This document shows positions 59,116-61,773 of a stretch of DNA of 64,000 bases, piece by piece. This DNA comes from Pseudomonadota bacterium (lineage in GTDB: Bacteria; Pseudomonadota; Alphaproteobacteria; Dongiales; Dongiaceae): NCBI GenBank assembly GCA_021792365.1, contig JAJYUT010000003.1, positions 310,001 to 374,000 of the forward strand, in the 5' to 3' direction. Position 1 is the stretch's first letter. Each line of letters starts with the position of its first letter. The notes beneath the pieces were generated by a model. It saw nothing but the letters and a program-made list of their open reading frames with translations. It searched no databases and was not told the DNA's origin. A program made the translations under genes and the position numbers.

Positions 59116-59691
59116 ATGAAGAAGGCCAAGCGCACTCCCATCGAGGCCCGGGCCGCGGAGATCGCGGATGTGGAAGGGCTGACACGGCTTTATACGTACC
59201 GCAACGCCTATGCGCAGACGTTGCAGCTGCCGTTCCAGAGCACAGAGATCTGGCGAAAGCGGCTGATGACCAACGACGAGACACAGCATACGCTGGTCGC
59301 GATCGTTTCAGGCGAGCTGGTCGGCAATCTGGGATTGACGCGTCTCGTTCGTCCGCGCCGCGCTCATGTCGGAGAGATCGGCATGGCCGTGCGCGACGAT
59401 TGGCAGGGCAAAGGCGTCGGCTCGGCGTTGATGCGGTCGGCCATCGATCTCGCCGACAATTGGCTCGGCCTGCGCCGGCTGGAGCTTCGGGTCCATGCCG
59501 ACAACGCGCGCGCCATCGCGCTCTATCGCAAGTTCGGCTTCGAGGTGGAAGGCACCCACCGCGCCTACGCTCTGCGTGATGGAGTTTATGTGGACTCTCT
59601 ATCCATGGCGCGCCTCATCGAGGGTCCTCGCATCATAAGCGCAAGCAGGAAGGCGAACGCTCATCCCGGTGTCCAGGTCCACAAGATCTAG
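59116..59691 (+). CDS. GNAT-family N-acetyltransferase
   Basis: This 191-aa protein resembles YhhY-type L-amino-acid acetyltransferases (YRNAYAQTLQLPFQSTEIWRKRLM). The acetyl-CoA loop is VRDDWQGKGVGSALM and the closing helix is NARAIALYRKFGFEVEGTHR. The tail after MARLIEG (GPRIISASRKANAHPG...) is not typical and may mark the border of the low-GC insert that follows. Confidence 0.9.
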   Translation: MKKAKRTPIEARAAEIADVEGLTRLYTYRNAYAQTLQLPFQSTEIWRKRLMTNDETQHTLVAIVSGELVGNLGLTRLVRPRRAHVGEIGMAVRDDWQGKGVGSALMRSAIDLADNWLGLRRLELRVHADNARAIALYRKFGFEVEGTHRAYALRDGVYVDSLSMARLIEGPRIISASRKANAHPGVQVHKI

Positions 59692-59956
59692 GTGCGGGCA
59701 CGCACGGTGAAAGTGCCGATGGGAGGCGCGGTGTAGCCGCTGCTGTTCATTGTTCTTGGGACCCATTAGCTCGAGCGTTCTTATTGCTTGGCCATCGATG
59801 ACAAAGACAATTTCGGACTGATTCGGCTAAAGACGTCAATCCTGTTTGACCGACTGCTGCCTCCATCTCACATCATCATGCTTGTGGTGTTGGTGAGTTT
59901 ACCGCCAATGCTACCATCGCACTTGATATATTTGGGCGGCGAAGGGGAGGAGACGC

Positions 59957-61642
59957 ATGGGTGACGATGAAACGAGAGCCCTCCAAAGCGAGTGGTTCGA
60001 GATAAGAAAGCTGTTGCATCCAGTTGTCCAGGACCGCCGGATGTGGGAAATGGCGCAAGCTGTAAGAGACGGTCTGGCTGCCGATCTCGATAGACCGGGC
60101 TCAAAACTGAAAAGGCCTCCTCGTCATCAACGAACGAAGCCCACCCCTTCATATACTCCGCCGAATTTTCAACAGATGCTTGACAAGGTGTGGCCAACCG
60201 TCCAGCGGACAAAGCTCGACGGATCAAAATACAAGCGATATCTACGCGCATATCACAAAGCACTTAGCGAGGTGAGGAAGCCGCCAAGCGGTTTGGAGAA
60301 CCTGCTGCGAGACAGGCTGCAGTTCGTGGAAACCGAACTTGCCAAAGTGCCGTCTTCGCCGGAGAAGTGCGTAAGTCTCCTCCAGGCGTGGGTCCGACAT
60401 GAACCGGAAATGGACGTCCTTAGTTATCTTGCTGCTCGCGGAGACCAATTGGATCCAGGCGACATATCCTATTGGGTCAGTAGGCGGAAGGAGGTCCGAC
60501 TAGATGCGTCTCCGCAGGGATATGAAGCAATCTTCGGATCGATTGAGTTCGATTTCTTTAATCGAGTCGATCGAGTCGCTGCTTCATCGCATCTTCGTAG
60601 ACTTGAAATGCAGATCAAAAGGTCAATAGCGGAAGAAGGCGGACGTATTGGCGAGTGGCGCATTGACGGGCTCAGCATCAATTTTCGCAATCTGCTCTGT
60701 ACGTTGTGGCTATGTGCGAGAGTTCCCGGGCTTCGACAGGCGGTATCATCGGAAGCTCGCAAAGCAGTCTTGGAGGTGCTTGCCTGCCAAAAGACTGACG
60801 GTTCGTGGCATGAGACAAGTGGACGCAAAGAGAATTTCGATGAAGAGGCCCCTTCGCCCCTTTCTACGGGTCTTGCTGTCTGTGCGATGCAGTCATTCCT
60901 TCCTTCAAATACGACCTCGGATCAACAGATCCGTGCCATTGCTTGGCTGTGTCAACAGCAACTGCAGAACGGAAGCTGGGCGGACAGTATCGTTGCCGCC
61001 AATGGCGATTTTTGGACCACTCTTGCGGCGCTAACTGCGCTCAAGAACACTCAGGCTACCGATCTGGGTAGATACATAGATGCGGGAGAGAAATGGCTGC
61101 TCTTGCAGCAGAACGGCTTGGGTGCATGGGAAGGTCGCCCATTTTCTAACTCCTTTGCGTCTGTCCAGGCGCTCCAATATTTCGGGCAGGTTAGGCGCGG
61201 CGATACACCTGCTGATCGATACACCGCCGCCGCTATTCAGTTGCTGGAGCGTGCTTCTGAAATACTCAGTCAGACGCACATGGAGTATGCTGATAGGGCA
61301 CTAGCAATATTCGCGATTCACCACGCGCTGGAGTTCTTCCTCTACGGCCTTCTGCAACTACCTTCAATTAACCTTGATGTATTCAACACGAGCAAAAGGA
61401 CGATTGGCCTGACGGAAGCTCTATCAAACTTCCGCGATCATCTAATTGCTGAACGAAAGCTCGAGGCGCACAAGCAGCTTTCGCACCGCACTCAGATATC
61501 TGAGATGATAAACGACCGCGACAATTCTGTTCATAGGGCACAGGACGTTCCGGAGGCGCATTTGAAAGCGCACTTAGAGACGGCCAAACGCTTTATTTCG
61601 AAATACAGCCTTATGACGACGGGCCGCGACATATTGAGCTGA
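59957..61642 (+). CDS. Alpha/alpha-toroid protein with C-terminal HEPN-like motif
   Basis: This 561-aa protein has no family I can name with confidence. The middle (about 260-420) carries helical repeats with QW-type motifs like those of prenyltransferases and squalene cyclases: CQKTDGSW (277-284), QLQNGSW (335-341) and QQNGLGAW (384-391). The acidic DxDD motif of true cyclases is not seen. The C-terminus (about 440-555) is helical and has RDNSVH (521-526), a fit to the RxxxxH motif of HEPN RNases. Codon use and G+C are lower than in flanking genes, indicating transfer. GGGGAGGAG precedes the ATG. It stands alone. Confidence 0.8.
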   Translation: MGDDETRALQSEWFEIRKLLHPVVQDRRMWEMAQAVRDGLAADLDRPGSKLKRPPRHQRTKPTPSYTPPNFQQMLDKVWPTVQRTKLDGSKYKRYLRAYHKALSEVRKPPSGLENLLRDRLQFVETELAKVPSSPEKCVSLLQAWVRHEPEMDVLSYLAARGDQLDPGDISYWVSRRKEVRLDASPQGYEAIFGSIEFDFFNRVDRVAASSHLRRLEMQIKRSIAEEGGRIGEWRIDGLSINFRNLLCTLWLCARVPGLRQAVSSEARKAVLEVLACQKTDGSWHETSGRKENFDEEAPSPLSTGLAVCAMQSFLPSNTTSDQQIRAIAWLCQQQLQNGSWADSIVAANGDFWTTLAALTALKNTQATDLGRYIDAGEKWLLLQQNGLGAWEGRPFSNSFASVQALQYFGQVRRGDTPADRYTAAAIQLLERASEILSQTHMEYADRALAIFAIHHALEFFLYGLLQLPSINLDVFNTSKRTIGLTEALSNFRDHLIAERKLEAHKQLSHRTQISEMINDRDNSVHRAQDVPEAHLKAHLETAKRFISKYSLMTTGRDILS

Positions 61643-61773
61643 GGCCGAGGCTCCCTCAAGGATCATCTGGAGCTACCGCTATGCGCTACCCCCGCACGCC
61701 GTCTTCCAGCGGAGGCATACACGGACCCACTTTGTACCCATAGTGGTTACCTGGTTGGAAGGCGTTATGCGGC

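Follow-up and report, generated by a model that had tools for sequence, protein, structure and literature searches.

An acquired gene in a clean insert

The window analysed here is a 64,000-nucleotide stretch of an alphaproteobacterial genome of the family Dongiaceae (assembly GCA_021792365.1, contig JAJYUT010000003.1, positions 310,001 to 374,000). The gene in question lies on its plus strand at 59957-61642, where an intact open reading frame (ORF) encodes a protein of 561 amino acids (aa) that joins a terpene-cyclase-type toroid to a HEPN-like C-terminal domain. The domain order, the conservation of the motifs, the toroid fold, the loss of the cyclase acid, the foreign insertion and the swapping of N-termini in this family were established by computation. 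The gene is probably a horizontally acquired single-gene immune effector, namely an RNase of the abortive-infection type.

The gene is present once in its own genome. Its guanine-plus-cytosine (GC) content is 0.527, and four other window genes have 0.63-0.68; at third codon positions (GC3) the values are 0.547 and 0.77-0.91, respectively. Two genomes of the same genus carry the empty site, in which a GNAT gene and the gene to the right of the insert are adjacent, and blastn of the window against these two sites placed the borders at about 59634/59661 and 61758/61771. The low-GC insert, situated between two convergent host genes, spans 59634-61771 (inner estimate 59661-61758). The original prediction, which had suggested a comparison with close relatives to find the insertion borders, had drawn the dip in base composition from 59692 to about 61770; its end was right, and its start fell slightly inside the insert. 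Because GC and GC3 drop here, because the site is empty in the two same-genus genomes and because, among 17 genomes of the host family, that of the window alone carries the gene, we conclude that it is foreign, sporadic and horizontally acquired. As had been anticipated, it is also a single gene, with no convincing second gene and no evident antitoxin-like ORF within the insert. Searches of the insert for tRNA genes, Rfam families and flanking repeats turned up none that marks its borders or would explain its entry.

A toroid without the cyclase acid

The (alpha/alpha)6 toroid of terpene-cyclase type occupies approximately residues 132-417 (60350-61207, plus strand). Pfam SQHop_cyclase_C (PF13243) matched residues 262-350 above the family cut-off (E-value 5.3e-7), and both NCBIfam and the fold comparison likewise pointed to the squalene-hopene or drimenyl diphosphate cyclase type. 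Three QW motifs are present on the same strand: QKTDGSW (residues 278-284, 60788-60808), QLQNGSW (residues 335-341, 60959-60979) and QNGLGAW (residues 385-391, 61109-61129). An AlphaFold model of the protein, built with eight homologues, had a mean predicted local distance difference test score of 64.4; confidence was fairly good in two stretches, at about residues 245-465 and 485-555, whereas the part before residue 245 was poorly predicted. VIA-align superposed residues 206-413 of this model onto drimenyl diphosphate synthase (Z 15.7, 3.4 Å, 188 residues). The model of one homologue (L025) contained a whole barrel at residues 175-444, and its best matches were tied between thioester-protein domains (TEP1), squalene-hopene cyclases and sugar epimerases at Z of about 17-18.

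The alpha-toroid fold and the QW motifs of class II terpene cyclases are therefore present, and the catalytic DxDD motif is not: it occurred in none of the nine family proteins scanned. The three QW motifs, the missing DxDD and the C-terminal RDNSVH of the original prediction were all recovered on the 561-aa ORF, as was its terpenoid-cyclase-like toroid. Since the acid is absent in 9/9 proteins, class II cyclisation by the toroid appears unlikely. Apart from the gene itself and one further locus (L003), the other early sequence matches covered the toroid alone; they were mostly frames of about 650-735 aa, presumed to be squalene-hopene cyclases, and were set aside.

A C-terminal HEPN-like domain

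The toroid is followed by a HEPN-like domain at residues 418-556 (61208-61624, plus strand), which carries RDNSVH as its candidate catalytic motif (Arg521 and His526; 61517-61534) and Glu459 of helix 2 (in HALEFFLYG; 61331-61333) as a candidate active-site acid. RxxxxH by itself was rejected as proof of a HEPN domain: the pattern occurs twice in this protein, shuffles of the protein contain 1.27 occurrences on average and at least one in 74% of cases, and even the stricter R[NDH]xxxH is present in 13% of shuffles. Because the motif is expected by chance in a single sequence, the case for HEPN rests on the homologues. RDNSVH marks the sole RxxxxH column pair kept in 9/9 aligned homologues, the runner-up being kept in two, and Arg521 and His526 are invariant in 10/10 aligned sequences; Glu459 is invariant both in a set of nine and in the set of ten. 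The residue following Arg521 is Asp in nine sequences and Asn in one, hence polar throughout, in line with the definition of the HEPN motif as Rx4-6H with a polar residue after the Arg (PMC3710099; this and the other cited papers are drawn on from excerpts).

The model places helices at residues 418-437, 444-466, 511-526 (kinked) and 533-555. In it, RDNSVH closes helix 3 right before helix 4 and Glu459 lies within helix 2, which agrees with the arrangement described for HEPN, where helix 3 ends in the motif and helix 2 carries the acid (PMC3710099). Pfam RiboL-PSP-HEPN (PF18735) matched 8 of the 10 C-terminal segments of the family (best E-value 1.3e-4); for one full-length relative it scored 12.2 bits, under the curated cut-off of 28.4. 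Furthermore, this domain is the most conserved segment among the relatives, its identity to L025 being 65-94% and that of the second toroid half 40-89%, as would be expected of an effector part. Taken with the conserved residues, the Pfam matches to relatives and the modelled position of the motif, the C-terminal region thus seems to behave as a HEPN domain, as first proposed.

A rare family headed by a shared N-terminal module

The window gene, at first taken for an orphan, has relatives. When 84,980 species genomes were scanned by pattern, 78 matches were obtained, which resolved into 12 loci, a lower bound from which divergent members are missing; Sinorhizobium meliloti pSymB provides an additional member. 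Eight loci are intact (Shinella, Sphingomonas, Rhizobium, Ensifer, three Pseudomonas and Albitalea), and the other four (L033, L034, L035 and L036) are broken or truncated: the Mesorhizobium copy has a stop and a lost end, the Inquilinus copy is frameshifted, and two Hyphomicrobium records with the same sequence (L035 and L036, identical over their first 12.9 kb) hold remnants of the HEPN end. Each of 11 genomes searched again had one copy, and a HEPN profile run against 398 sampled genomes of the phylum found the gene in the window's own genome only. The family is therefore rare. Viral-contig scans with whole proteins, alignments, the N-terminal module described below and the window N-terminus as queries gave no relative, and a Foldseek comparison with viral proteins yielded nothing at an E-value of 0.001 or better. 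One candidate N-terminal homologue (L003, genome G042) was rejected, being by eye an unrelated membrane exporter. In Rhizobium leguminosarum and Hyphomicrobium (L021:6293-7432 and L035:10269-11405), remnants of the HEPN end adjoin one and the same gene, which encodes about 378 aa (MATTAYS...).

A front segment of about 130 aa (MFNL...RTHWA) heads the eight intact relatives, the S. meliloti protein and the frameshifted Inquilinus copy. The same module heads an Escherichia coli plasmid protein with a TIR domain (TIR_2, 3.1e-19) and a protein of Escherichia phage Tritos with an FRG domain (9.6e-22; L024:3851-5182). It is also present in a protein of the P2-like phage Peduovirus P22H1 (L086:320-1681), which we label FRG by its 46% full-length identity to the Tritos protein. 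Both phage proteins are annotated merely as hypothetical. In Rhizobium beringeri pRlX2 (L089:2509-5359), the module heads a protein annotated as FRG, whose gene follows that of Drt2, an antiviral reverse transcriptase, at a distance of 106 bp. Further partners, judged by eye and not by a family scan, look TIR-like or deoxyribosyltransferase-like (proteins of Serratia, Vibrio, Paraburkholderia and Rhizobium NXC24). In total, the module was found in 100 plasmid records, and an alignment of ten module segments has eight invariant columns. TIR and FRG domains have been described as immune enzymes that consume nicotinamide adenine dinucleotide (NAD) (PMC9503650). Judged from these sequences, the shared module is an apparent trigger with alternative effectors. 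The original prediction had made the toroid the sensor; this found no support, and the separate module of the relatives, also carried by TIR and FRG proteins, is the better trigger candidate, so that the toroid may be a scaffold or transmitter.

In the window protein, residues 1-115 (59957-60301, plus strand) stand in place of this family module. Searches of plasmids, phages and viral contigs with this segment found no credible relative, and its model confidence is low.

Genomic neighbourhoods of the relatives

Several homologues adjoin defence genes. AbiEi/AbiEii adjoin those of S. meliloti, Shinella and Rhizobium; the Sphingomonas homologue is near LmuB (5.6e-14), one Pseudomonas homologue (S31) near MkoC (1e-158), the Hyphomicrobium homologue near a CBASS-type cyclase (2e-109), a second Pseudomonas homologue (S37) near an nSTAND3-Mrr protein and an FRG protein, the Ensifer homologue near restriction-modification genes and the Mesorhizobium homologue near a Fic protein. 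MkoC is assigned to Mokosh, LmuB to Lamassu and SngA/SngC to Shango. In Inquilinus limosus DSM 16000 (L034:7940-9170), the frameshifted module-toroid-HEPN gene comes last in a row of three genes on one strand, after a helix-turn-helix gene and the reverse transcriptase of a type VI retron, in an operon-like arrangement. The reverse transcriptase (RT_VI, 2.1e-93) lies about 30-60 bp upstream of the homologue, and type VI retrons may use module-toroid-HEPN proteins as effectors.

A matched test was restricted to six homologue loci; it left out L004, L025, L026, L029, L033, L035 and L036, and further loci with AbiE, LmuB and CBASS-type genes lie outside it. At L029, one neighbour was scanned by Pfam, with no match. 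Defence genes were found at 5 of the 6 homologue loci and in 2 of the 6 control stretches (p = 0.12). One homologue locus, L032, was counted as having none on a pooled tally that lists 25 of its 71 families, and the other four controls were so counted on one that lists 25 of its 111 families together with three of their proteins scanned singly. The two positive controls are Pseudomonas stretches (S37 and S31) with Gabija or Shango genes (L083:2645-6258 and L084:7878-13811), located on the same contigs as toroid-HEPN genes. Overall, the association between homologues and defence genes is suggestive: the expectation that homologues would lie in defence islands held in that several adjoin defence genes, and it fell short in that enrichment was not proved and the window gene itself was not seen in an island.

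A proposed single-chain immune effector and its alternatives

The reading that we favour, with fair rather than full confidence, is that of an acquired immune effector whose RNase activity, dimerisation, autoinhibition, trigger and anti-phage role we infer. The C-terminal HEPN domain would be a metal-independent RNase working as a dimer, and the toroid, having no catalytic acid, would keep the RNase inactive and relay a signal. The variable N-terminus, which in the relatives is the module of about 130 aa common to TIR and FRG proteins, would sense infection. Once triggered, the HEPN dimer would cleave RNA, with tRNA or mRNA as the probable substrate, and growth of the infected cell would cease ahead of phage release.

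Several results weigh against this reading. The window HEPN segment matched no Pfam family even at an E-value of 10, a profile search of PDB sequences gave chance-level matches and no HEPN structure, and none appeared in the fold lists for the window and homologue models, which were filled by the toroid and so do not speak to the HEPN fold itself. Residues 1-130 aligned to the shared module with an hhalign probability of 0.1, and the window protein is without that module. With respect to the neighbourhoods, the matched test did not separate homologue loci from controls, the AbiE-linked homologues are closely related and not independent (L025 and L027 are 86-94% identical by segment), and the ORFs at 54-64 kb around the window gene look like ordinary host genes, with no defence gene seen among them by eye.

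An addiction or toxin-antitoxin role is unlikely, although it is the likeliest of the alternatives. On this account, a HEPN RNase restrained by its own toroid or by a host factor would maintain the inserted element and have no anti-phage function. HEPN toxins are common in toxin-antitoxin systems (PMC3710099), AbiEi/AbiEii, which three relatives adjoin, form a type IV toxin-antitoxin pair, and the insert has one evident gene. However, that insert holds no evident antitoxin-like ORF, and the N-terminus of the relatives is common to TIR and FRG proteins, which have been described as NAD-consuming immune enzymes (PMC9503650).

It is quite unlikely that the window gene is a decaying or inactive remnant, a divergent copy that has lost its trigger module and its function. 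Such decay would fit the 4 of 12 homologous loci that are broken or truncated, as well as the window copy itself, which is 29-32% identical to the relatives in its HEPN segment and is without their shared N-terminus. Nevertheless, its 561-codon frame is intact, and Arg521, His526 and Glu459 are kept. It is highly improbable that the protein is a terpenoid or lipid enzyme that retains catalysis and has a helical extension of merely HEPN-like appearance. The QW motifs would point to such an enzyme, as would the similarity to squalene-hopene and drimenyl diphosphate cyclases in Pfam, NCBIfam and the fold comparison. However, DxDD is absent in 9/9 proteins, the relatives adjoin defence genes with no terpenoid-pathway gene among the neighbours scanned or annotated, and conservation among the relatives is highest in the C-terminal extension and not in the toroid.

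Relation to known defence systems

The immune-effector reading has precedents. Tha, a tail-activated anti-phage protein of Staphylococcus aureus prophages, is like the window protein a single chain with a C-terminal HEPN domain and RxxxxH, and is an RNase of the abortive-infection type; it differs in its length of 301 aa, in lacking both a toroid and, in the published excerpt, any recognisable N-terminal domain, and in its known activator, a phage tail protein (PMC11087260). DS-11, a one-protein CBS-HEPN system, likewise combines a regulatory domain and HEPN in one chain, and its defence is lost on changing HEPN residues; in place of the terpene-cyclase toroid it has CBS domains (PMC13092281). 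The HEPN effector of the type IX retron Kva2 is a tRNase that stays inactive until a phage signal, a proposed likeness to the window family. However, it has no canonical motif, the text available reports no toroid, and it is sequestered by reverse transcriptase, DNA and a winged-helix protein (PMC13405049). In the window family, one homologue is encoded immediately behind the reverse transcriptase of a type VI retron. As for the single domains, RiboL-PSP-HEPN (PF18735) is the best Pfam match for the C-terminal domain of the family, the window protein itself giving none, and the toroid fold and QW motifs are shared with class II terpene cyclases such as squalene-hopene cyclase (PF13243), from which the family differs by its missing DxDD acid, its single barrel and its fusion to HEPN. 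No fusion of a HEPN domain with a terpene-cyclase toroid was found in the literature searched, as far as the excerpts go. HEPN RNases and single-chain HEPN defence proteins are thus already known, and toroid-HEPN would be a new architecture with a candidate function.

The relatives further show that several different suspected effectors have one N-terminal module in common. Tentatively, and with less confidence than in the effector role itself, we suggest a modular immune class whose TIR, FRG, TIR-like, deoxyribosyltransferase-like and toroid-HEPN effectors exchange a trigger of about 130 aa. In the RNase version, the toroid without its catalytic acid would be the regulatory hub, and the window protein would be a variant with a swapped trigger. 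If the module does act as a trigger, several effectors could be tested with a single phage signal, and knowing what it detects would explain a set of unannotated genes of plasmids and phages.
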